A stretch of 48,842 nt of DNA, taken from IMG/VR virus record IMGVR_UViG_3300047554_000214, positions 1 to 48,842 of that record. One strand, given 5' to 3'. The notes beneath the pieces were generated by a model. The model had not been told where the DNA came from. It saw nothing but the letters and a program-made list of their open reading frames with translations, and did not search any database. Below are positions 1-48,842 of this stretch, piece after piece; the first letter of the stretch is position 1, and every line of letters starts with the position of its first letter. Position numbers and translations under genes: made by a program. Source of the stretch: a virus.

Positions 1-500
1 ACACACCCAAAAAAAACAACACGACGGTGAATACCCTGAAACGCAGAAACAATATCAGTATCAGCAGGACGACGACCAAACCCAATCAACGTACCATACT
101 CATCATCCAACTTCCACTCCTCAGACTGATTAATATGCCCAGGCAAACTAAACCCACGCACAGCAGCAGCCTTATGATTATCCTTCAACTCACGAAACAA
201 CACACGAGCAATCTGAGGATAAGTAGGAGCAGACGCAATCAACGCCACCTCATACGGATCATGCACAGCAATCCACCACGCACCCAAAATACCAGCCACA
301 GCAGACTTACCAGCACCATTACACGACACAACAGCAGTATGCGTATAATCAACCAAAGAACGACCAATCTCAGCCTGCTTAGACCACAACGTCTTACCCA
401 AAACATCAGAAGCCCACGCCACAGGATCAGTCAAATAAACCGAATTCCTAGAACGCTTACGCAAATCAGCAATAACACCATCAATAACATTATCAATCAT
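1..500 (-). CDS. terL: Terminase large subunit, N-terminal part (gene continues across the contig join)
   Basis: ATPase part of the motor that packages DNA into the prohead. It starts at ATG 500-498 inside the end of the small-subunit gene (ATGATTGA overlap, 8 nt). Residues 58-66 form the Walker A loop (SCNGAGKSA, Lys65). The frame stays open to the window edge and continues at 48842 after closing the circle: codon 118 ends at base 147 and codon 119 is the TTG at 48842-48840. Joined length is 503 residues, usual for the family. Over the first ~24 bases the protein diverges from the clean copy at the other end (HRRVVFF here, HRRFVFVVLDE there), which I read as a noisy contig end and not as biology. 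Nearly every codon ends in T or G. Confidence 0.93.
   Translation of the reverse strand, partial: MIDNVIDGVIADLRKRSRNSVYLTDPVAWASDVLGKTLWSKQAEIGRSLVDYTHTAVVSCNGAGKSAVAGILGAWWIAVHDPYEVALIASAPTYPQIARVLFRELKDNHKAAAVRGFSLPGHINQSEEWKLDDEYGTLIGFGRRPADTDIVSAFQGIHRRVVFFGC
25..146. repeat. Terminal direct repeat, left copy (assembly overlap of a circular map)
   Basis: These 122 bases are identical to 48721-48842. Both lie in the same frame of the terminase large-subunit gene, which becomes complete only when the ends are joined. This is what an assembler leaves when a circularly permuted or terminally redundant phage genome is linearised at an arbitrary point. Bases 1-24 match only partly. Confidence 0.95.
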
Positions 501-987
501 TCAACAACTCAGCCTTCGCCCTAAACAAACCCTCAGCCACCAACTCATCCAACTCATCAGCAGACACCATCGGAAAACGCTCCTTCAACTCCCCCTTCGC
601 AAAACCCAAAGCAGCATCCATAGCCCTCAACAAAACACCCTGCTGAAACTCAGACAAACGCAAAACCTCAACATCCAACTCCACACGCTGAGAATCCAAA
701 CGACGACCAATCAACTCCAAAGTCTTCAACAACAAACGAGCCGAATCAGGATCCCTCAAACGCAAAGCAGCATCAGACAAAGACTCCTTCAACTCCATCA
801 ACTCAAACAACAACAACTGACGCTGCTCAACCTCAGACCAAACATCACGACGCGCCAACAAACCCTTAACATGCGCCAAAGCCTGAGCCGCAGGAATACC
901 AGTCTTCCGCTCCATCTCCTCACCAGACTTACCAGAAGCAGCCAAACTAATCAAAGTCTCATCCAACAAAGACAACTCACCACTCAC
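493..987 (-). CDS. terS: Terminase small subunit (probable)
   Basis: DNA-recognition part of the packaging motor, called mainly from its position directly before the large subunit, with overlapping stop and start. 164 residues. The N-terminal ~60 residues look like a helix-turn-helix (LISLAASGKSGEEMERKTGI, then an Arg-rich segment). The middle is a long charged helical stretch suited to oligomerisation. The end is acidic (SADELDELVAEGLF). It starts at GTG 987, eleven bases after AGGAGG. Codons end almost only in T/G. A pac-type recognition site would be expected in or near this gene. The family is too diverse to name from sequence alone. Confidence 0.75.
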   Translation of the reverse strand: MSGELSLLDETLISLAASGKSGEEMERKTGIPAAQALAHVKGLLARRDVWSEVEQRQLLLFELMELKESLSDAALRLRDPDSARLLLKTLELIGRRLDSQRVELDVEVLRLSEFQQGVLLRAMDAALGFAKGELKERFPMVSADELDELVAEGLFRAKAELLND

Positions 988-1139
988 AGACCAGTCACCC
1001 TCCTCAAACCATCCACCTTAACCTCCAACTCCTTAACAGCAACAAAAACCAAATACACCATATCAGCAACCTCCTTCAAAGAAGGCTCCTTAACCTCATC
1101 CTCAACAACAGGCTCATCATCACTAATCGACCTAGACAC
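984..1139 (-). CDS. Small acidic protein upstream of terminase
   Basis: 51 residues if translation begins at GTG 1139, chosen because a perfect GGAGG lies seven bases before it. An open frame extends to a GTG at 1184 (66 residues, KKIFRVFFGGFW added), but that start has no ribosome site. The body is acidic, then amphipathic helix (MVYLVFVAVKELEVKV). The stop overlaps the GTG of the terminase small subunit, implying coupled translation. It shares the T/G third-base bias of the terminase genes, which supports real coding. No family recognised. Confidence 0.6.
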   Translation of the reverse strand: MSRSISDDEPVVEDEVKEPSLKEVADMVYLVFVAVKELEVKVDGLRRVTGL

Positions 1140-1344
1140 CCAAAAACCTCCAAAAAATACACGAAAAATTTTTTTCAACAACACACCAATAATAACACAA
1201 AAAACCTAAAAACCTTTAAAAAACGCATACGTAGGGAGAGAGCAGGTACGGATGTTGTGTGTGTGAATAAAATGATTTCTTTGGGTGGGCCGTCTTGGGC
1301 AAAAAAAAGCCCCGAGCTTTTGGGCCCGGGGACTTTTGTTTAGG
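1140..1344. other. Intergenic region at the strand-composition switch; origin candidate
   Basis: About 200 non-coding bases between two minus-strand operons. It holds the terminator of the ssDNA-binding-like gene (1301-1334), A-rich runs (1193-1224), a GGGAGAGAGCAGG stretch (1233-1245) faintly like part of the leader RNA element, and a TATTAT -10-like box (minus strand, ~1187-1192) before the terminase operon. To the left the plus strand is A/C-rich, to the right G/T-rich, although genes on both sides point the same way. This suggests a replication origin or other polarity switch. Confidence 0.4.
1301..1334 (-). terminator. Rho-independent terminator after the 1345-1761 gene
   Basis: On the minus strand CCCCG (1331-1327) pairs with CGGGG (1314-1310), followed by C and eight T (A-tract 1301-1308). 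A-rich sequence precedes it, extending the stem. It sits just after the stop at 1345. Confidence 0.85.
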
Positions 1345-1761
1345 TTACTTGAAGGTAACGATTTGGTTTTGTTTTGTGCCTGGCATGTCGCGTCGTTCTT
1401 GGACGCTGATGGTGGCGGTTACTACGCGTCCTGCTAGGTCGTCGAATTTCTGAACTAGGTCTGCGTTTGTGATGCCGAGTGCTCGCACTAGGCTAACTCG
1501 TGACATTTGAACGAACTGTGCTGCACCTTTTGGTGACTGGTCGGTTACTGCGAACAGTGGAATCAGTTTGTAGATGCGTCGGTTGGTTTCTGTCTTGAAT
1601 TGAAAGTTCAATCCTGGTTCGCCTGCGAACTTTGATGTTGCGCCGAACTGTTTGAATTCGATGCTTACGATTTCGAGTTTGTAGTCGCCAGCTGGTAGTG
1701 GCTCGTAGCTTGATGCTACTAGTGCTGAGTCGTCTGGTACTACGATGTTGATGTTTGACAT
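1345..1761 (-). CDS. ssDNA-binding-like protein (DUF669-type), paralogue of 16225-16692
   Basis: 138 residues. The N-terminal half (YEPLPAGDYKLEIVSIE, then an FQFKTE..NRRIYKLIPL stretch) matches in order and spacing the protein at 16225-16692 (YAPLPEGTYVANVFEVEI, then FKVQFKVAEGEFSNRRLFTYVPLY). That protein sits beside a Sak4-like ATPase and is the likely recombination/replication ssDNA-binding protein. The present copy lacks the acidic SSB-type tail and ends in QIVTFK. It starts at ATG 1761 after AAGGAG and forms its own transcription unit: leader RNA element, gene, terminator. ssDNA binding is inferred from resemblance only. Confidence 0.6.
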   Translation of the reverse strand: MSNINIVVPDDSALVASSYEPLPAGDYKLEIVSIEFKQFGATSKFAGEPGLNFQFKTETNRRIYKLIPLFAVTDQSPKGAAQFVQMSRVSLVRALGITNADLVQKFDDLAGRVVTATISVQERRDMPGTKQNQIVTFK

Positions 1762-1783
1762 TACTTTTCTCCTTGTTTGGTTT

Positions 1784-1847
1784 GGGGTCCGAGCAGGCTT
1801 TCACTCTTTCCATAAGATACTTCGAAGAGACAGCCGCGAAGGACCCC
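1784..1847 (-). ncRNA. Structured leader RNA element, copy 1
   Basis: One of three related ~62-nt elements. Read on the minus strand: outer helix GGGGTCC/GGACCCC (1847-1841 with 1790-1784), unpaired TTCGC, inner helix GGCT/AGCC, then invariant GTCTCT, a variable loop, and TGCTC closing the internal loop. It ends about 20 bases before the AAGGAG ribosome site of the 1345-1761 gene. I do not recognise it as a known riboswitch. Transcription direction is inferred from gene position. Confidence 0.6.
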
Positions 1848-1869
1848 TGTTTTGTTTTTTGTGGAAGTT

Positions 1870-2094
1870 TTACAGCTTTGCTGCTTTTAGTATTACAGCG
1901 ATTCCTAGCCCTAAAGTTGCCAGGATTGCTACACTGTAGAACCCTACCATGATTAGTTGGTAGTGGTTGTAGGTTGGGCCGCCCCATTGTAACTGTTGGG
2001 TTACGATGATGTCGGCGTTGAGGGCTAGGTCGTCTTGGATGCTTCGAGCTAGCCACCATGATACTGCTGCGATTGCTACGAGTGCGGTTTTCAT
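1870..2094 (-). CDS. Small membrane protein
   Basis: 74 residues from ATG 2094, preceded by AAGGA. It has a hydrophobic N-terminus (TALVAIAAVSWWLA), a polar middle and a strong C-terminal membrane segment (LIMVGFYSVAILATLGLGI) ending in basic residues. Last gene of the unit begun by leader copy 2; it overlaps the preceding gene (stop 2091) by four bases. Could be an inner-membrane accessory or exclusion protein; nothing in the sequence decides this. Confidence 0.7.
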   Translation of the reverse strand: MKTALVAIAAVSWWLARSIQDDLALNADIIVTQQLQWGGPTYNHYQLIMVGFYSVAILATLGLGIAVILKAAKL

Positions 2095-2402
2095 GCCGTC
2101 CTTCTTTCTTCGTATTTGATTGTCCACCAACGTAGATGTCCGTTGACTTCGTGTATTTCCACTTTGTTGCGTTGTGTTTGTATGTCTTGGATTATTTCTT
2201 CGTTTGACTCTCCGTCTGCTTCTTCGACTGGTTCCCAGTTGTAGTAGCATGAGTGGTCTTTGATTACGAGGTCAAAGCTGACATCGTGTTCTCTTGCGAT
2301 ACGGTTAGCGTCAACTGCCCTTGGGGCGATGATGCTGATGTAGGTTGGCATGTTGTTCACTGTTCTTAGTGATTGGAATTGCCATAGTTTGAGTTGTGTC
2401 AT
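2091..2402 (-). CDS. Hypothetical protein
   Basis: 103 residues from ATG 2402, overlapping the previous stop as ATGA. The open frame continues upstream, but that part lies inside the neighbouring gene and reads as low-complexity basic protein, so I reject it. Middle and end are acidic (VEEADGESNEEIIQDI), closing with a basic KYEERRTA. Codons favour A/C third bases like its neighbours. No family recognised. Confidence 0.7.
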   Translation of the reverse strand: MTQLKLWQFQSLRTVNNMPTYISIIAPRAVDANRIAREHDVSFDLVIKDHSCYYNWEPVEEADGESNEEIIQDIQTQRNKVEIHEVNGHLRWWTIKYEERRTA

Positions 2403-2692
2403 TTTTCGATGTACTCTTTCCATAGTGTTTCGTCTAGCCCCCAGAAGTCCCAAGGGTTTAGTTTTTCGTATTCCCACATCATTGCGTTGCTGTATGCTAG
2501 GAATCTTTTTGTTGTGTTGCGTTGACCTGTGATGCGGATGGTTTTGGGACCCCATTCTGATTCGCGTAGGTCCCAAACGTGTACGACTCGTGTCTTGTAA
2601 GTGACTTGTCGTTTGTGTACGTATTCTTTCTTTCTGCGCATGATGACATAATCGCCTACGCGTATGTCTTCTGCTTTTATTAGCGCACCCAT
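2399..2692 (-). CDS. Hypothetical protein, SH3/KOW-like start
   Basis: 97 residues. The beginning (ALIKAEDIRVGDYVIMRRKK) has the VGDYV turn found in small beta-barrel SH3/KOW-like domains, as does the next upstream gene (IGDWVKFI). The second half is rich in aromatic residues (MMWEYEKLNPWDFWGLDE). It overlaps both neighbours by a few bases, so it is a tight operon member. Function unknown. Confidence 0.7.
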   Translation of the reverse strand: MGALIKAEDIRVGDYVIMRRKKEYVHKRQVTYKTRVVHVWDLRESEWGPKTIRITGQRNTTKRFLAYSNAMMWEYEKLNPWDFWGLDETLWKEYIEK

Positions 2693-2874
2693 GTTATCCT
2701 CTCAATTGGTGTCCAATATTTGCGGCTTGCGCTCGCAAAGATTAATGCTCGTGATCCGTCGTGCGTGAATTGCACGATTCTGAAGATGGTTCCGTATGGT
2801 CCATCATTTATGAACTTCACCCAGTCTCCGATGTCGATGGGCTGTCCAAGTGCATCCTTGTGTGGACTTGGCAT
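2680..2874 (-). CDS. Small SH3-like protein
   Basis: 64 residues, first gene after leader copy 2. It starts at ATG 2874 with AAGGAGA seven bases before. DIGDWVKFI..GPYGTIFRIVQF suggests a small beta-barrel. It overlaps the next gene by 13 bases. Function unknown. Confidence 0.7.
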   Translation of the reverse strand: MPSPHKDALGQPIDIGDWVKFINDGPYGTIFRIVQFTHDGSRALIFASASRKYWTPIERITWVR

Positions 2875-2890
2875 TGCTTCTCCTTTTGTT

Positions 2891-2951
2891 GGGGGCGAGC
2901 AGGCTTACCCACCCTTCGAAAGTTACCTGAGAGAGACAGCCGCGAGCCCCC
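2891..2951 (-). ncRNA. Structured leader RNA element, copy 2
   Basis: Minus strand: outer helix GGGGGC/GCCCCC (2951-2946 with 2896-2891), TCGC, inner helix GGCT/AGCC, invariant GTCTCT, variable loop, TGCTC. The outer helix differs in sequence from copy 1 but keeps pairing (TCC/GGA becomes GC/GC), which is compensatory change. It ends just before the ribosome site of the 2680-2874 gene and lies ~95 bases after the terminator of the previous unit. Confidence 0.62.
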
Positions 2952-3045
2952 TTGCGCCACCTGTACTTTCCCTGCATTCTGCGGTAGGGGCTTTTGTGGA
3001 AAATTTTAGGGTCTTTTTTGTGTCTTGTTAGGGGCGGTGTTGGGT

Positions 3046-3077
3046 AAAAAAAGTGGGCGGTTTTTACGCGCCCACTT
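3046..3077 (-). terminator. Rho-independent terminator after the amidoligase unit
   Basis: Minus strand: AAGTGGGCG (3077-3069), loop, CGCCCACTT (3059-3051), then a T-run. Located directly after the stop at 3082, it ends the unit that starts with the amidoligase. Confidence 0.88.
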
Positions 3078-3081
3078 GTTT

Positions 3082-3297
3082 TTATTGTTCGAAGGGTGTT
3101 AGGTCGTCGCCGTCTAGGATGGCTATGACGTATTTGATTCGTTGCGCGTCTGGGAGTATTGATATGATTTCCCATTGCGCGTCGGTTAGCAGTCTGTCGT
3201 CGAAGAGTAGAACGTTTTCCATTCTGCCCCATTCGCCGTTTTCTGTAACGTATGCTGATACTGCGATGTCGTAGGTTCTATCAAACTTTAGCATCAT
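3082..3297 (-). CDS. Hypothetical protein
   Basis: 71 residues from ATG 3297 (a second ATG follows at 3294). Upstream sequence in the same frame overlaps the real 3281-3427 gene and is dropped. Sequence: beta-rich start (KFDRTYDIAVSAYVTENGEW), then LTDAQWEIISILP and an acidic end. Last gene before the terminator. The ribosome site is weak, so translation may be coupled to the overlapping upstream gene. No family recognised. Confidence 0.62.
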   Translation of the reverse strand: MMLKFDRTYDIAVSAYVTENGEWGRMENVLLFDDRLLTDAQWEIISILPDAQRIKYVIAILDGDDLTPFEQ

Positions 3298-3427
3298 TTT
3301 TATCACCGTCCCATTGGTAGCTTGTATAGATGACGTAATATGCTGGGATTGTGTCGGTGACGTGCACTTCTGCACGTTCATCGATTGTGAGTGCTAGCTC
3401 AACCATTTCGTTGAATGACAGTTCCAT
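3281..3427 (-). CDS. Small hypothetical protein
   Basis: 48 residues (MELSFNEMVELALTIDER..., ending NDAKV). Its ATG overlaps the previous stop as TAATG, and GGAAGAG precedes it. A/C-ending codons match the operon. It overlaps the next gene by 17 bases. Short, but continuous coupling on both sides supports it. Confidence 0.6.
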   Translation of the reverse strand: MELSFNEMVELALTIDERAEVHVTDTIPAYYVIYTSYQWDGDKNDAKV

Positions 3428-3615
3428 TACTCTTCCTCTTCTTCGAAGTACTCAGGATAGGTGACTTTGAGGTGTTCTTGAATTTCTTCTCGTGACGCTT
3501 CGTTCACGATTAGACGGATGAGTTGTGCGTCATCTCTTAGCGTGTACCAGCCGATGTAACTGCTGTCACCTAAGCGTTTGATTCTGTCTTCTAGAAATTG
3601 AAGTGTGATGTCCAT
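3427..3615 (-). CDS. Small acidic protein
   Basis: 62 residues, predicted helical, with a Glu-run C-terminus (YPEYFEEEEE). Stop and start overlap both neighbours by one base. IVNEASREEIQEHLKVTYPEY has the look of a short helical bundle. No family recognised; an acidic DNA-mimic role is possible but unsupported. Confidence 0.65.
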   Translation of the reverse strand: MDITLQFLEDRIKRLGDSSYIGWYTLRDDAQLIRLIVNEASREEIQEHLKVTYPEYFEEEEE

Positions 3616-3914
3616 TAGATCAACTCCTCTTCAATGATTGGCGCTGTTGGCATGTATCGCACATAGACTGTCCACAGTTTCTTGTCTGGATGGTCGATGG
3701 CTAGGTTGTTGCCGCCTCGTAACGCTAGTTCAATGTCTGCGAATCGGTCTTTGATTCGGTACATTGTGGCTGAGTGGCTGACTTGTTCTGGATATTCAGC
3801 CCATTTGCCTGGGTGTTGGTAAAGTTCTTCGATGAAGGTTGTGAACTTTTCCATTGTTTGTCTGCGTCCGTCTGATGCTCGGACTACTGAGTCTTCTACG
3901 AATTTGATTTTCAT
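3615..3914 (-). CDS. Hypothetical protein
   Basis: 99 residues, mixed alpha/beta, ending in acidic IIEEELI. No signal peptide, membrane segment or recognised motif. Three bases separate it from the upstream gene, so it belongs to the amidoligase transcription unit. Confidence 0.68.
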   Translation of the reverse strand: MKIKFVEDSVVRASDGRRQTMEKFTTFIEELYQHPGKWAEYPEQVSHSATMYRIKDRFADIELALRGGNNLAIDHPDKKLWTVYVRYMPTAPIIEEELI

Positions 3915-3917
3915 GGT

Positions 3918-4145
3918 TTACTCGGTGTCGCTTTCTTCTAGCAGGGTTGGGGTTTCGTGTAGTTCTTCGAACCATTCGATTAGTTCGTCGTATGTGATGA
4001 TGTCTTGCACATATTGGCGAACTTTTGATAGTAGTGCTTCGTTTTCGTAGATTGTTGCGTCTGAGATTGCGTAAACATCGCAGAGGTCGTCTACTATTTC
4101 TTCGAGTTTAAGATGGAACTCGAAATCGTCTTCGTTTAGTGCCAT
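3918..4145 (-). CDS. Small acidic helical protein
   Basis: 75 residues, strongly acidic (MALNEDDFEFHLKLEEIVDD..., ending LEESDTE). It starts at ATG 4145 after AGGAAAG. It directly follows the amidoligase gene across a 60-base gap holding a strong hairpin. An acidic peptide next to an amidoligase could be a substrate, but no duplicated C-terminal motif or other sign shows this. Confidence 0.68.
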   Translation of the reverse strand: MALNEDDFEFHLKLEEIVDDLCDVYAISDATIYENEALLSKVRQYVQDIITYDELIEWFEELHETPTLLEESDTE

Positions 4146-4173
4146 GTGTATCTTTCCTTAGGGTTGGTTGTGG

Positions 4174-4198
4174 GGGGGGCCACTGTTTGTGACCCCCC
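4174..4198 (-). other. Intergenic hairpin between amidoligase and next gene
   Basis: Minus strand GGGGGGTCAC/GTGGCCCCCC with loop AAACA; ten pairs including one G-U. On the plus strand that position would be an A-C mismatch, so the structure suits minus-strand RNA. No T-run follows, so it is more likely a processing or stability element, or a partial attenuator, than a full terminator. Confidence 0.55.
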
Positions 4199-4205
4199 AT
4201 CATTT

Positions 4206-5768
4206 TTAGAGCCAGGCGTATTGGTTTACTGTAGTTAGAGGCTTGTCTGCTCTGCTACCGTAAATTACTTCGTCTGGGTTTTCGTTACCGATTTCGTAAT
4301 CGAACTTTTTGAACACGTCAAGGATGCCTTGTAGTGTTGTGATGTTTTTGTAGTCGTGGAATTTTGCTCCACGTTTTGCTACAGTAACAATGCCGCGAAC
4401 GATTGCTGCCCATTTTGTGATGCGCTGCCAGTCGATGTTGCCTTCCATTTGACGGAATTCGATTGTGCCTCGATCATTTTTGAGGTGCATAAGGTTTACA
4501 GCGAATGGTTTAGCGTCGGATAGTTTAGGGTTTTTGCTGCTGATTGCTCCAGCTACTGTTTCTGCTGGAATAACTTGAGCATATCCTACGCCGCGTCGAC
4601 CTGCGATGTGTGTTAGCACATTTTCGATCACTGCATATGTTGCAACTACTTGACCTATTTGTTGCATGTTTAGGTCTCGTGCATATACGTGAATGTGTAC
4701 GCCTGCGGTGTCGTTGATTTCGGCTCCGTTGGCTTCTAGTTCTTCACATAGTTTGATCATTGCAGCGTGTTTGCCTTTGACAATTCCGCCTGTTGATCTG
4801 TATTCTGCACTGTCGCATTGTGCACAGTAACTGTTGCCGCAGTGATCTGGGTCACTGTTTTGTGATTCGCAATAGTCACAGTCACAGTCGTGGTATGTGC
4901 AGTCGTCGCAGTCACATTCGCAGTCGTCTGAGCTTTCGAAGGATCGTAATGATCCGTCTTCGCCTTTTTCGATGCCTGTGCCTGGTGTAACTTCTACACC
5001 TTTAGCGTCTGGTACTTCGATTTCGAAGCCCCAGGTTCTGCCTGCTAGCCAGTTGCTTTTCGGCAACTCTAGTGCTTTGATTTCTTCACGAATGATTGCA
5101 CCGTCAACGTCTTCGGTTCCGCGAATGTTTAGGACAACTTTGCCGAAGTTGCTTCCTGATTTTCTTGGATTTGCGTTGCGTGTGTAATAGTCTACATATT
5201 CGTTGTAGGTTGCTACAGCGTGTGTAATGTCATTCTTTGTGATTTCAGCGTCGCGAAGAATCTCTAACGCCCACATTAGTTTGTAATGTACTGTGGTTGT
5301 TCTAGTGCCATCTTCGTTGTCAACGTTGACTGTTACACGTGGCGTTGATTGGTTGGTTTGCAGCCTTTGGAAACCAGCTGATTGATATAGTGGAATATCG
5401 TATGGGTGTTGAGCGTCTGCAGTTGATACTGCACGACTGTATGCACTCCAGATGATTGCTAGCAAACGGTTGCTTTGCAGCTTTTCTAGCATTGCTTTAG
5501 CGTCGTCTTGATCCATTGGTCGCCACGTTTGCTGTCCGTACACTTCTTTGATGATTGGAATGCCGATGTCAATGTTTAGGCCTGCAGCGTCTGTTGCATA
5601 ATTGCCTAGCACTGTCATTAATAGCGTTTTTAGTTTGTCTATTCGTTCAGCGTTTTGAGCGAGCGTTTCGTCATCTGGTATGATGTGTAGACCTGTAACG
5701 TTTAGCGCATCAATTACATCGCTAACGTTTTGACGAAGCTTTCTTACACTGTAGATTGTTGTTTCCAT
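4206..5768 (-). CDS. Amidoligase-family enzyme (glutamine-synthetase fold) with Cys-rich insert
   Basis: 520 residues. From ~245 on it carries the amidoligase signature: GFEIE (247-251), DGSL (271-274), GVHIHV (356-361) and TIEFR (435-439), the acidic and His residues expected to bind metal and ATP. Such enzymes join an amine or ammonia to a carboxylate. Between the first and third motifs lies an insert with ten Cys in 36 residues (283-318, CECDCDDC.. and C..C pairs), probably zinc-binding. The N-terminal 240 residues are not recognised. It starts at ATG 5768, following a leader with RNA element copy 3 and a broken small ORF. A class II glutamine amidotransferase starts divergently at 6309 and is the natural ammonia donor. 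The substrate (host wall, peptide, nucleic acid) is unknown. Confidence 0.75.
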   Translation of the reverse strand: METTIYSVRKLRQNVSDVIDALNVTGLHIIPDDETLAQNAERIDKLKTLLMTVLGNYATDAAGLNIDIGIPIIKEVYGQQTWRPMDQDDAKAMLEKLQSNRLLAIIWSAYSRAVSTADAQHPYDIPLYQSAGFQRLQTNQSTPRVTVNVDNEDGTRTTTVHYKLMWALEILRDAEITKNDITHAVATYNEYVDYYTRNANPRKSGSNFGKVVLNIRGTEDVDGAIIREEIKALELPKSNWLAGRTWGFEIEVPDAKGVEVTPGTGIEKGEDGSLRSFESSDDCECDCDDCTYHDCDCDYCESQNSDPDHCGNSYCAQCDSAEYRSTGGIVKGKHAAMIKLCEELEANGAEINDTAGVHIHVYARDLNMQQIGQVVATYAVIENVLTHIAGRRGVGYAQVIPAETVAGAISSKNPKLSDAKPFAVNLMHLKNDRGTIEFRQMEGNIDWQRITKWAAIVRGIVTVAKRGAKFHDYKNITTLQGILDVFKKFDYEIGNENPDEVIYGSRADKPLTTVNQYAWL

Positions 5769-5784
5769 TTTTTATTTTCTGCTC

Positions 5785-5909
5785 CTAATTGCAGGTAAAT
5801 GAGTTTGTGCAACTACTTGTTGCAACGGTTGGGATGATAACAAAAGTCATCATTGTGATAATGCTGATTAATAAGATGAATACTACTAAAGATTTACTAT
5901 TTCGGGCAT
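5785..5909 (-). CDS. Small membrane protein, apparently frameshifted
   Basis: After RNA element copy 3, AGGAGTAT leads to ATG 5909, which reads MPEIVNL and stops (TAG 5888-5886). One base back, the -1 frame continues open as VVFILLISIITMMTFVIIP..., a clean membrane segment ending at 5785, with A/C-ending codons like the neighbours. That frame has no start of its own. Either a single-base change (mutation or assembly error) split a ~40-residue gene, or a -1 slip at AAATCTTTAG is used. The heptamer is not a classical slippery site. Confidence 0.4.
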
Positions 5910-5926
5910 ATACTCCTAATATGTCT

Positions 5927-5990
5927 GGGGTCCGAGCCGTTCTCGATCCCTGCAAGAGAACCAGAAGAGAGACAACGGCGAGAGACCCCC
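5927..5990 (-). ncRNA. Structured leader RNA element, copy 3
   Basis: Minus strand: outer helix around GGGGTC/GACCCC, TCGC, inner helix CGTT/AACG (GGCT/AGCC in copies 1-2: covariation), invariant GTCTCT, longer variable loop, GCTC. Here the loop also holds GTTCTC..GAGAAC, which competes with the inner helix and offers an alternative fold. It heads the amidoligase transcription unit. Confidence 0.62.
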
Positions 5991-6129
5991 ATATATTTTT
6001 GTAACAATTTGTAACTATTTGTCCGCAAGCCCCTAAATATGTCCTATATAGGTGGCGTTTTTTCTAGAATTTTGCCCAGGTTTTTCGGCCTCAGCGAACA
6101 AACTGCCTGAAAAATGTTCCCCCATCGAC

Positions 6130-6159
6130 TTGACAAACCCACCCCCAAACCATTAAACT
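6130..6159 (+). promoter_or_regulatory. Possible rightward promoter (TTGACA ... TAAACT)
   Basis: TTGACA at 6130-6135 with an 18-base spacer to TAAACT (TTAAAC at 17). It lies in the ~300-base divergent region between the amidoligase and glutamine amidotransferase units, which holds no gene. The -35 is perfect; the -10 is weak. Confidence 0.4.
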
Positions 6160-6227
6160 AGACATAGACAAACAGTAAAACCCCCACAAGGGGTAAAAAA
6201 AATTCCAAAAATATTTCGCCAAAACAC

Positions 6228-6256
6228 TTGCGCGACCGACGTTTTTGGGGTAGACT
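6228..6256 (+). promoter_or_regulatory. Possible promoter of the glutamine amidotransferase gene
   Basis: TTGCGC at 6228-6233, 17-base spacer, TAGACT at 6251-6256. Transcription would begin ~45 bases before the ATG at 6309. Spacing is ideal and position fits. A short CCCC..GGGG hairpin (6181-6193) lies upstream. Confidence 0.45.
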
Positions 6257-6308
6257 GTAGGTACAAGTTGTTTTAGTGACCTGGATGGGTCGGATTGGTT
6301 TTGATATT

Positions 6309-7373
6309 ATGTGTGGTATTTCTGGTTTTAGTTTGGCTTATGGGTCGAAGATCAATGCTCGTAAGTTGGCTCATGCTTTGTTGTGTGAGATTGAGTCTCG
6401 TGGTAATCAGGCTTCTGGTGTTGCGTGGCAGTCTGTTGATGCGTCTGGCACGTTTAAGGGTGCTGTTCGTGGTTCGCAGTTGTCTTTGCGTGGTTTGCCT
6501 AAGCGTGCTTCGTCTGTGATTTTGCATACTCGTTATGCTACTCATGGTTCGATTGATGTTGCTGAGAATAATCATCCTGTTTCGTCGCCTGATGGCAGGA
6601 TTGCTTTGGTGCATAATGGTGTGATTTATAATCATGAGTTGGTGCGTAAGCAGTTTAGTTTTAAGTTGCCTGAGGTTGATACTTCTGTTATTCCTGCTAT
6701 TTTGCAGAAGTTTGGTTCTGACCGTTTTGATATGTTGGATGGTGATGCGGCTGTTGCGTGGTTGGATGAGTCTGATCGTGGTGTGTTGCGTGTTGGTCGT
6801 GTGTCTCATTCTCCGTTGGTTGTTGCACAGTTGCCTGATGGTTCGTTTGTGTTTGCTTCGACTGAGGTGTTGTTGCGTGATGCTTTGAAGCGTGTTGGTT
6901 TGAAGCCTGTGTGGTTTGAGGTTGCGCCTGAGTATCGTTTGTATACGGTTCGTTTGGGTCGTGTTGATTCGGTGTCTGAGTTGCCTTCTACTTCTGCGGA
7001 TTTTGTTCAGCCTGTTTCTTCGTATTCGTATGGTAAGTATCGTGGTATGACTTCGGGTGGTAGGCGTTCGTCTGGTTATTGGTATGACGAGGGTCAGTCT
7101 GGTGTTTTGGGTTATTCGCCTGTTGAGGAGGAGTTAGAGGAGGACTTTGAGTTGTTCTTGACTAGGTTTGTTGAGCATGATGGTATGTTTTATGATTTTT
7201 CTGGTGTTCCTGTTGGCACGTTGGATGTGTTGCGTGAGGAGTTTGAGGATTATCGTTATAACGAGTATTGGGCGACTAGGCAGTATGGTTATAATCCGTA
7301 TTCGTTTACTGAGGGTTCGTTTGATCCTGAGCGGTTTGAGGGGTCGTATGATGAGTGGGCTGGTTTTAGGTAG
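6309..7373 (+). CDS. Class II glutamine amidotransferase
   Basis: 354 residues. It takes ammonia from glutamine through an N-terminal cysteine. MCGISGF at the start gives the catalytic Cys2 after Met removal, which is why I chose ATG 6309 over in-frame upstream starts that would bury it. Further family motifs: RGNQASG (~31), HTRYATHG and ENNHPV (~73-90), LVHNG (~100). The last ~130 residues are Tyr/Glu-rich and unrecognised. No synthetase partner domain is fused, so ammonia must go to another enzyme; the amidoligase transcribed the other way is the obvious candidate. Codons end almost only in T or G, unlike the next genes. No strong ribosome site is visible. Confidence 0.85.
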   Translation: MCGISGFSLAYGSKINARKLAHALLCEIESRGNQASGVAWQSVDASGTFKGAVRGSQLSLRGLPKRASSVILHTRYATHGSIDVAENNHPVSSPDGRIALVHNGVIYNHELVRKQFSFKLPEVDTSVIPAILQKFGSDRFDMLDGDAAVAWLDESDRGVLRVGRVSHSPLVVAQLPDGSFVFASTEVLLRDALKRVGLKPVWFEVAPEYRLYTVRLGRVDSVSELPSTSADFVQPVSSYSYGKYRGMTSGGRRSSGYWYDEGQSGVLGYSPVEEELEEDFELFLTRFVEHDGMFYDFSGVPVGTLDVLREEFEDYRYNEYWATRQYGYNPYSFTEGSFDPERFEGSYDEWAGFR

Positions 7374-7390
7374 TCCCCCTCGTTCGTATT

Positions 7391-7434
7391 ATCTATATAT
7401 ATATTATTATTATATATAATATTGATATATAGAT
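7391..7434. repeat. AT-only inverted repeat
   Basis: Right after the amidotransferase stop, ATCTATATAT (7391-7400) and ATATATAGAT (7425-7434) are perfect 10-base arms, with inner arms ATATTAT (7401-7407) and ATAATAT (7416-7422). It is the most AT-rich stretch seen, an easily melted cruciform or hairpin. It could be an unwinding element or a transcript-end structure. Confidence 0.7.
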
Positions 7435-7448
7435 GGTAGTGGTTTCTT

Positions 7449-7504
7449 GGTCGGTTTGTTATTGGATATGGGCTGTTTCCATCCATATTTGATGCATTCC
7501 GACC
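7449..7504. repeat. Nested inverted repeat
   Basis: Outer arms GGTCGG (7449-7454) and CCGACC (7499-7504), inner arms ATATGG (7466-7471) and CCATAT (7483-7488), separated by near-equal 11- and 10-base internal loops. It looks like a structured RNA or protein-binding site in the non-coding 7374-7663 region. Confidence 0.5.
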
Positions 7505-15494: not shown

Positions 15495-16220
15495 ATGAGC
15501 GAATTCGCTAACTTGCCATGGCTCAAACATGTGACCAAGGCATCACAACACCAAACCCCTAAAACCATTCTTCTCTACGGAGACCCAAAGCGTGGTAAGT
15601 CGTGGCTAGCCGCGAGCGCATCCGAAATTAAGGAACTGTCGCCTGTACTAGTTATCGATACCGAGGGTGGTTCATCGGCTATTGCACGAGATTGGAAAGA
15701 TGTTGACGTTATGAGCGTTAACAGTCACGAACAGTTGGATGCAATCCTTAACGACTTGGTTTCGAAAGAACACCAATACAAGACTGTGATTGTTGACACG
15801 CTCGGCGTGGCAATGGATCGTGCAGAGAAATTCTTTGGCGAGAAGCCAGAGAACCGTAACAACAAGTTCGGTAAATGGGGCGACTTGAAAGAGTGGGTAA
15901 CGGATATTACTCGCAAACTTCACGCGTCACCGTTCCTAGCAATCCTTGTAGCACACGCTAAGGATGAAAAGGACGACCAGACAGGTGCAGTAAAGACTGT
16001 ACCAATGTTGCCAGGTTCGGCATCTAACACGTTGCCAGCCATCCCTGACATTATCGGTTACATGACCGCTGAAAGCGACAACGAGGGTAACATCCATCGT
16101 GTGCTTTACTTGCAGTCTTCGGACCGTATGGTGACAGGAAACCGTTTCGGTCTACCACCTAAAATGGTTGACCCTAGCATCAAAAAAATCATTACCGCTA
16201 TCAACAATGGAGGAAAGTAA
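15495..16220 (+). CDS. Sak4-like RecA-type ATPase (AAA_24)
   Basis: 241 residues, AAGGAGAG upstream. Walker A GDPKRGKS (29-36), Walker B-like VLVIDTEGG and VIVDTLG, plus ILVAHAKDEKDD as sensor region. This is the phage Sak4-type annealing/strand-exchange ATPase, which works with a phage ssDNA-binding protein; that protein is the next gene, four bases on. From here on the plus strand becomes A/C-rich. Confidence 0.85.
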   Translation: MSEFANLPWLKHVTKASQHQTPKTILLYGDPKRGKSWLAASASEIKELSPVLVIDTEGGSSAIARDWKDVDVMSVNSHEQLDAILNDLVSKEHQYKTVIVDTLGVAMDRAEKFFGEKPENRNNKFGKWGDLKEWVTDITRKLHASPFLAILVAHAKDEKDDQTGAVKTVPMLPGSASNTLPAIPDIIGYMTAESDNEGNIHRVLYLQSSDRMVTGNRFGLPPKMVDPSIKKIITAINNGGK

Positions 16221-16224
16221 AAAT

Positions 16225-16692
16225 ATGAGTAGTATGACTTTTGGAGCCAACGACTTTGGTTCATCAGACTACGCACCACTACCAGAGGGCACTTACGTCG
16301 CTAACGTGTTTGAGGTAGAAATTGTTCAGGTCAAGAACGGCGAAAACGCTGGTAAAGATCAGTTCAAGGTTCAGTTCAAGGTAGCAGAGGGTGAGTTCTC
16401 GAACCGTCGTCTGTTCACTTACGTTCCGCTTTACGCAGGTAAGGCTTCATGGAAGACGGTTGCGTTCTTCAAGGCACTCGGTTACGAACCGAAGCCTGGC
16501 GAGCCTTTCACCATTCCAACCCCTAACGAGTTGTCGGGCAAGAGCCTAGGCATCAAGGTTAAGGTTGTTCCAAGTCAGGATGGTGGGCAGGAGAATAACA
16601 TCTCTGGCTTCACTTCATCCGCAAGTGTGGAGTCGCTACTGTCGGCTGTCACAGCAAAGGCTCCAGCATCGTCTGACGATCTCTGGGCCTAA
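16225..16692 (+). CDS. ssb: ssDNA-binding protein (DUF669-type)
   Basis: 155 residues from ATG 16225 (GGAGGAAA upstream). The beta-rich OB-like body contains YAPLPEGTYVANVFEVEI and SNRRLFTYVPLY. The acidic tail ending SSDDLWA is the SSB-type tip that recruits partner proteins. Next to the Sak4-like ATPase, it probably coats ssDNA in recombination and replication. A divergent, tail-less paralogue lies at 1345-1761 on the other strand. Confidence 0.75.
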   Translation: MSSMTFGANDFGSSDYAPLPEGTYVANVFEVEIVQVKNGENAGKDQFKVQFKVAEGEFSNRRLFTYVPLYAGKASWKTVAFFKALGYEPKPGEPFTIPTPNELSGKSLGIKVKVVPSQDGGQENNISGFTSSASVESLLSAVTAKAPASSDDLWA

Positions 16693-47684: not shown

Positions 47685-48842
47685 CTACCACGACCAAGAA
47701 CCATAAAAAGGAAACGCCCCATCAACATCATCCACATCAACCCACAACTTATCACCAGGCTTCGCATCACCAAAACGCGAACCCAACAAACGAGACATAT
47801 CCAAAACAGCATACATCGCAGCATCCAAACGGTCAGGAGACTTCATCCCACGAGCACGCATATCATCCTTAGACTCAATCTGAATAGAACCCTTAGCCGA
47901 AAACTTATACTTAATCGCCATCATCTCATCCAACAAATCCTTATCATACAAATCCAAATCCAACTTACCCAACACCATCGCCTCCCTAAAAGAATCATAA
48001 CCAGCAGCACGAGCATTCAACCAACGAGTATTATCAGGAGAAGCAGCAGCACCCACAACAGAAATCACCACATACTTACCCTCACACATCGCCGCCAACA
48101 TATCCACAATCGGCGCACCCAAACCAGTACCATCCACACGAACCTCAACAGCCGACAAACCAACCGCCAACTCATGAATCCTATTCGCAGACTCCACAGC
48201 ATTAGCCTTCGACCAAGTAGCAACATGCCTCAAACGACCACCACGATTCGAATAAACAACCGAATCATCCCCACCAAAACGAGCCACATCCACACCCAAA
48301 ACAACAGGCACAGCCAAATCCTCAACAATATCACAATCCACAGCAGAATCAATCGCCTGCTGACTAAAAAACGTAGTATCATCCTCATCAGGAAACTCAG
48401 CCAAAATCTTAGACTTATAACGAGCCGAATCCACACCCCAAGCAACCGCCTGCCTCTCAACCCAAGACGGCTGAATAAGTAAAGGCTTCAAATCATCAGG
48501 AACAAACTCACCAGTAAAATTCGGCGTATCAAACGCAGAAATCTTAATCTTATTCCAAGTATCATCCTCACGAAAAATCCGATGAAACTCCGTACCACGA
48601 CGATCAGGATTCCCAATCGCCAAAACACGCGAATCAGCAGTAGTCGTAACAGCCTCAGCAGCAGTATACAAATCAACAGGAATACCACCAGCCTCATCCA
48701 ACACCACAAAAACAAAACGACGGTGAATACCCTGAAACGCAGAAACAATATCAGTATCAGCAGGACGACGACCAAACCCAATCAACGTACCATACTCATC
48801 ATCCAACTTCCACTCCTCAGACTGATTAATATGCCCAGGCAA
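47685..48842 (-). CDS. terL: Terminase large subunit, C-terminal part
   Basis: 385 of 503 residues (119 onward). Walker B FVFVVLDE (catalytic Glu168 of the joined protein), coupling motif LAIGNPD, then the RNase H-like nuclease: Asp303 in LGVDVARFGGDD, Asp354 in VRVDGTG, and DRLDAAMYAV near 478. The nuclease cuts concatemers and the ATPase packages. The gene begins at 500 on the other contig end. Ends WSW just before the portal gene. Confidence 0.95.
   Translation of the reverse strand: MPGHINQSEEWKLDDEYGTLIGFGRRPADTDIVSAFQGIHRRFVFVVLDEAGGIPVDLYTAAEAVTTTADSRVLAIGNPDRRGTEFHRIFREDDTWNKIKISAFDTPNFTGEFVPDDLKPLLIQPSWVERQAVAWGVDSARYKSKILAEFPDEDDTTFFSQQAIDSAVDCDIVEDLAVPVVLGVDVARFGGDDSVVYSNRGGRLRHVATWSKANAVESANRIHELAVGLSAVEVRVDGTGLGAPIVDMLAAMCEGKYVVISVVGAAASPDNTRWLNARAAGYDSFREAMVLGKLDLDLYDKDLLDEMMAIKYKFSAKGSIQIESKDDMRARGMKSPDRLDAAMYAVLDMSRLLGSRFGDAKPGDKLWVDVDDVDGAFPFYGSWSW
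48721..48842. repeat. Terminal direct repeat, right copy
   Basis: Identical to bases 25-146. The join through this repeat restores an unbroken terminase gene. Confidence 0.95.

Follow-up and report, generated by a model that had tools for sequence, protein, structure and literature searches.

Ahead of three neighbouring sets of genes, the virus record IMGVR_UViG_3300047554_000214 carries three similar short elements, and the question raised by this locus is whether these elements are folded RNAs and what such RNAs could do for the genes behind them. We analysed the 48,842 nucleotides of this record (hereafter the window), for which the original prediction, made from the sequence, had proposed a structured leader RNA in three copies. 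Sequence comparison confirms that the three elements are real folded RNAs on the coding strand. Moreover, hairpins are placed at the same gene starts in most members of a group of related uncultured phages, with different letters in different lineages.

The three elements and their fold

The elements are listed below with their scores under a covariance model, named R1, which was built from five copies (window copies 1 and 3, and three copies from a related phage contig, L004) with copy 2 omitted.

1784..1847, minus strand: leader element copy 1, intercistronic, preceding the DUF669 gene; 82.4 bits with model R1
2891..2951, minus strand: leader element copy 2, preceding a 64-amino-acid SH3-like gene; 67.1 bits with the model made without copy 2
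5927..5989, minus strand: leader element copy 3, preceding a small membrane open reading frame (ORF) and the amidoligase gene; 79.3 bits with model R1

As had been proposed, all three are present on the minus strand (1847-1784, 2951-2891 and 5989-5927 in reading direction), and the genes 3' of all three lie on that strand as well. Each element is composed of an outer helix (P1) of 6-7 bp, an internal loop, an inner helix (P2) of 6 bp, the strand GUCUCU and a 26-nt upper part. P2 consists of GC and four variable pairs, and in copies 1 and 2 a nucleotide bulges out of it; the four variable pairs had been recognised before, and the helix length of 4 bp then given has to be extended by the GC. The unpaired letters that never change are UC ahead of the inner helix, GUCUCU following it, which had already been noted as invariant and is constant in the window and L004 copies, and UC ahead of the outer helix. 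All six known copies have exactly 26 nt between GUCUCU and the returning strand of P2. The proximity to a ribosome site also stands, with the gap between element and Shine-Dalgarno (SD) sequence in the window copies being 4-9 nt instead of the 15-20 bases first estimated. Folding stability relative to dinucleotide shuffles is moderate (z -2.0 to -3.1), so that the case rests on conservation and covariation, and not on energy alone.

Covariation in two phages

The five-copy model recovered copy 2, which it had not seen, with a score of 67.1 bits (E 7e-12 in a search of 1.17 Mb). On the minus strand of the window, model R1 gave 82, 79 and 67 bits for the three copies, while the next best match in the window reached 12 bits; for copy 1 the minus strand scored 82 bits versus 10 bits for the plus strand, so the model score points to the same strand as the direction of the downstream genes.

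Across the five sequences from the two phages, 94% of cells are paired, and five pairs have changed on both sides: two in P1, two in P2 and one in a weak upper helix. This bears out the earlier reading of helices that vary while staying paired as covariation. None of 500 shuffles attained the covariation score of 0.371. Related sequences may surpass shuffles even when there is no structure, and the fold was drawn from the same five sequences, but slid controls scored lower (0.05-0.18) and copy 2 was recovered, both of which speak against an artefact.

The relative L004, whose DUF669 protein is 72% identical to that of the window, has all three elements at matching places with compensatory changes, such homologues being what the original prediction had expected a covariance model to find.

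L004 7915-7978: orthologue of copy 1; GGCU/AGCC has become CGCU/AGCG, a compensatory change at the same gene
L004 7114-7175: orthologue of copy 2
L004 4056-4117: orthologue of copy 3

Hairpins at the same gene starts in related phages

Relatives were taken from 80 loci obtained in a terminase search and 14 obtained from an amidoligase alignment, and their DUF669, SH3-like and amidoligase genes were placed by protein similarity. In about 15 related uncultured phages, hairpins are found at the starts of the DUF669 gene, the SH3-like unit and the amidoligase unit, and their letters differ between lineages. The DUF669 gene is preceded by a hairpin in nearly all relatives (weak in L227, none clear in L208). 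Middle-unit hairpins occur in 12 contigs (the window, L004, L194, L196, L211, L002, L209, L189, L190, L192, L207 and L215), and a similar one is visible in L195. The amidoligase leaders, read by eye, are hairpins in the contigs that have the small membrane ORF and enough upstream sequence; outside this reading stand the distant L198, L199 and L201, as well as L213, L229 and L232, in which another gene precedes the amidoligase.

In the 34 leaders with a recognisable SD sequence, the hairpin ends 1-20 nt before it and the SD sequence is mostly unpaired; in two further leaders the script found no SD sequence. Upstream of DUF669 in L190 and L192 the SD sequence lies within a tiny hairpin (ACCUGAAAGGU in L190, AUCCUGAAAGGAU in L192), the pairing of which is kept despite letter changes.

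The placement was measured by a fixed-window test at gene-defined starts, which is independent of hairpin limits and lineage groups set by eye and which superseded our first genome-wide hairpin listings, these being too noisy. The 19 DUF669 starts gave a median z of -2.37, versus -0.49 for 260 control starts (p ~3e-7, an optimistic value since several of the 19 are mutually related).

Turnover of sequence between lineages

Hairpins from different positions resemble each other more within a genome (mean pair score 14.3) than between lineages (7.0), and 15 of the 30 within-genome pairs score above all 378 between-lineage pairs; this comparison is indicative, as hairpins were delimited and lineages grouped by eye. 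In lineage D (L189, L190 and L192) the copies are not alike, all within-genome pairs falling in the between-lineage range.

Two other lineages show compensatory changes of their own, with covariation scores that none of 500 shuffles reached: 0.200 for five sequences of lineage E (L207, L215 and L195) and 0.412 for four sequences of lineage B (L194, L196 and L211), both from small alignments with structures drawn from the same sequences. The outer helix of lineage B is flanked by UCG and UCUC strands, which recalls the window type, and homology is not claimed. Taken together, the comparisons suggest that fold and position, rather than letters, seem to be preserved by evolution.

Extent of the RNA family

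The RNA type of the window is known from this phage, one near-identical fragment and L004. A rigid pattern scan of viral contigs gave only the near-identical fragment and L004 as true matches, and a looser scan gave 107 stretches, among which the strong matches to model R1 were the three L004 copies only (66-79 bits); both scans demanded exact core letters, so diverged members could be missed. The remaining stretches of the looser scan scored at most 19.9 bits, which is chance level for stretches preselected on core letters. The weak matches include two on the minus strand, L291 8035-8098 (E 0.33) and L367 4658-4721 (E 0.085), each at 19.9 bits and each in such a preselected stretch. In a pattern scan of genome contigs, the survivors of a structural filter among the matches listed look like chance. 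Model R1 had no match in 300 genomes from the family to which the genome behind L122 (Microcella) belongs, an empty result that proves little.

In Rfam 15, the whole window gave no match at the elements at or above the gathering score, only two tRNAs being found; sub-threshold matches at 1-7500 belong to unrelated families and do not single out the elements. Six related loci likewise matched no Rfam family, in agreement with the earlier remark that the element resembles no known riboswitch. Neither the window DNA nor the DUF669 protein of the relative L002 had a match in phage records. The closest cultured terminases are those of Arthrobacter phages (~45%).

Genes and signals around the copies

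The genes, promoter-like motifs and terminators near the three copies are as follows, all promoter calls being made by sequence likeness only.

1310..1331, minus strand: terminator after the DUF669 gene, found by scan
1345..1761, minus strand: DUF669 gene, 138 amino acids, possible single-stranded-DNA-binding protein (Pfam DUF669, E 0.006, below the family cut-off)
2680..2874, minus strand: 64-amino-acid gene, first of the middle unit, 94% identical in L004
3003..3031, minus strand: promoter-like CTAACA-17-TAAAAT upstream of copy 2, a consensus match only, conserved in L004
3042..3077, minus strand: terminator-like hairpin and U run closing the amidoligase unit, recognised directly in the sequence and absent from the terminator scan list
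4174..4198, minus strand: a further, simple intercistronic hairpin GGGGGGTCAC..GTGGCCCCCC, between the amidoligase gene and ORF 4145-3918
4206..5768, minus strand: amidoligase gene, 520 amino acids (Pfam Amidoligase_2, E 3e-9)
5785..5910, minus strand: small conserved membrane ORF between copy 3 and the amidoligase gene, with a similar frame in 12 other contigs
6043..6080, minus strand: promoter-like block CCTGGGCAAAATT-N-CGCCACCTATATAGG, ending 53 nt upstream of copy 3

The amidoligase unit and the DUF669 gene thus end in terminators, as had been predicted. The further proposal that each element heads a transcription unit is supported for copies 2 and 3, which have a terminator or a promoter-like block upstream, and not for copy 1: this copy begins about 22 nt past the stop of ORF 2094-1870 with no terminator between, and is therefore intercistronic in the window phage. 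In the relative L194, separate promoter-like blocks go with the DUF669 and middle-unit leaders, and a block like that of copy 3 recurs upstream of most amidoligase leaders in related contigs. The hairpin at 4174-4198 is altered yet paired in L004, and L192 and L194 also carry hairpins of other sequence there.

Relatives of the DUF669 gene are present in other contigs of the phage group. The 64-amino-acid gene, called SH3-like in the original prediction, had no match in Pfam. For the small membrane ORF, no ATG, GTG or TTG start lies 3' of the SD sequence in the window, L004, L195, L196 and L208, while in several relatives a GTG or ATG start stands almost on the SD sequence. A very short ATG ORF of 7 codons is found at the SD sequence of the window in another frame than the membrane ORF (5909-5886). 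A frame-shift was considered for the membrane ORF, and no slippery site was seen by eye.

Possible function of the leader hairpins

Tentatively, and with a confidence that stays just short of even, we favour a cis-acting leader hairpin that would protect the mRNA and enable its translation, perhaps being read by a lineage-specific factor. Such a hairpin, located in the untranslated leader of the phage message and ending a few nucleotides before a mostly free SD sequence, would keep host nucleases (decay of the RNase E or RNase J type) off the ribosome-binding segment and the message that follows it, and could do so at intercistronic sites too. It would also leave the start region accessible, by which a small number of early or replication-type genes may be made in high amount, and copies within a lineage might stay alike through copying between positions or through one shared factor. 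Past fold and position, every step of this mechanism is one that we infer. The short distance between hairpin and mostly unpaired SD sequence fits both protection and opening of the start region, and the simple hairpins that suffice at these starts in some lineages (L190 and L192) fit a structural rather than a ligand role.

By likely action, and by analogy, the nearest parallel is that of stabilising stem-loops in the 5' untranslated region (UTR), which protect messages; an actinomycete is reported to have a degradosome that contains both RNase E and RNase J (PMC7509114). In both cases a stable leader hairpin lies near and upstream of the ribosome-binding site and its sequence is largely free, whereas the phage hairpins occur in several copies per phage, at the same genes across the group, and with a sequence shared within a lineage. 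Three observations weigh against the protective hairpin. The constant UC, GUCUCU and UC strands and the fixed 26 nt exceed the needs of a plain barrier; promoter-like motifs stand ~45-55 nt upstream of copies 2 and 3, while a classical 5' stabiliser is at the very 5' end; and the SD sequence is predicted to be paired in two L004 leaders.

By position, the nearest published parallel is that of the extended start-associated sequences (ESAS) of Cluster K mycobacteriophages. These are imperfect inverted repeats that closely precede the ribosome-binding site at several non-structural genes; they have a subcluster-specific consensus and unknown function, and they go together with a 13-bp SAS motif located at the start codon (PMC3203893). 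The window elements, three in number, share with them the place upstream of the ribosome-binding site, the presence at several genes and the actinobacteriophage-type genome. Direct reading found the SAS motif GGGATAGGAGCCC absent between each of the three window elements and its start codon. Furthermore, the ESAS authors saw little support for RNA pairing of the repeats and favoured DNA-binding sites (PMC3203893), whereas the three window elements keep their pairing by compensatory changes, and compensatory pairs are found in lineages E and B as well.

A shared binding site is a somewhat unlikely alternative, in which a phage or host RNA-binding protein would act on the three units as an RNA regulon, coordinating their translation or stability. 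The likeness of copies within most genomes and the differences between lineages are as expected with a co-evolving partner, and the constant loop letters of the window type and the UCG and UCUC strands common to lineage B also speak for it. However, copying between positions explains the likeness of copies equally well, the dissimilar hairpins within lineage D genomes mean that a sequence-specific partner is not universal, and no candidate protein can be named. We hold it to be more doubtful still that one factor per lineage reads its own hairpin at the amidoligase, SH3-like and DUF669 units, hairpin and factor changing together, with leaders swapped wholesale between lineages while places and fold stay fixed. 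Processing by RNase III must also be weighed. In phage T7, the sites of this enzyme are several irregular hairpins with internal loops near gene starts, and here, too, irregular two-segment hairpins with an internal loop occur several times per genome near gene starts, one of them plainly intercistronic and joined by the additional intercistronic hairpin at 4174-4198. Cutting of such intergenic hairpins into separate protected messages is nevertheless improbable, given that the window helices, at 7 and 6 bp, are interrupted and shorter than those of T7, and that upstream of copies 2 and 3 there is a terminator or promoter-like block, which makes a cut between genes unnecessary.

Two of the roles first proposed for the element are disfavoured. 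HK022 put and lambda nut are multi-copy leader RNA hairpins of phage-specific sequence in the early part of the leader, and the window elements resemble them as multi-copy, lineage-specific structured RNAs at the heads of units, before non-structural phage genes. An antitermination RNA of this kind, letting RNA polymerase pass downstream terminators, is nonetheless very unlikely, because the hairpins adjoin the SD sequence across lineages and each of the two units, amidoligase and DUF669, stops at a terminator of its own; a terminator-like hairpin separates the amidoligase unit from copy 2, and it is followed by a separate promoter-like motif and element. A metabolite riboswitch acting on translation, for instance through a pseudoknot between GUCUCU and the SD sequence, would suit the compact fold and constant loop letters, and GUCUCU is able to pair with the SD sequence in most copies. 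Yet in most copies the complementarity between the GUCUCU region and the SD sequence is no better than that of shuffled letters (fractions 0.05-0.55), and no Rfam family was matched. The core is conserved within the two window-type phages, whereas relatives have, at these gene starts, hairpins whose sequence is unrelated; as a ligand aptamer should not be swapped for unrelated sequence at the same genes, a classical riboswitch is highly improbable.

Whichever role applies, the window provides an RNA family that Rfam lacks, in an uncultured phage of actinobacterial type, and leads on to a group of such phages whose leader hairpins keep their places before the same genes although the letters are replaced from one lineage to the next. 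Such a pattern suggests that early or replication genes are controlled after transcription in these phages, which have no cultured close relative. Elements of this kind necessarily escape family searches based on sequence, and the gene-start test is open to use on further phage groups.

Other features of the phage

A direct repeat of 142 bp, 97% identical, is present at both ends of the window (5-146 and 48701-48842); the terminase frame runs off the right end, where contig L003 reads through, and the window contig may be a nearly closed circle. A second DUF669 protein, above the Pfam cut-off, is encoded on the plus strand at 16168-16692 and shares 26% identity with the first across 130 residues. 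The plus strand also has a glutamine amidotransferase-like gene (Pfam GATase_6) at 6276-7373, divergent from the amidoligase unit, and its relatives include Arthrobacter phage proteins.

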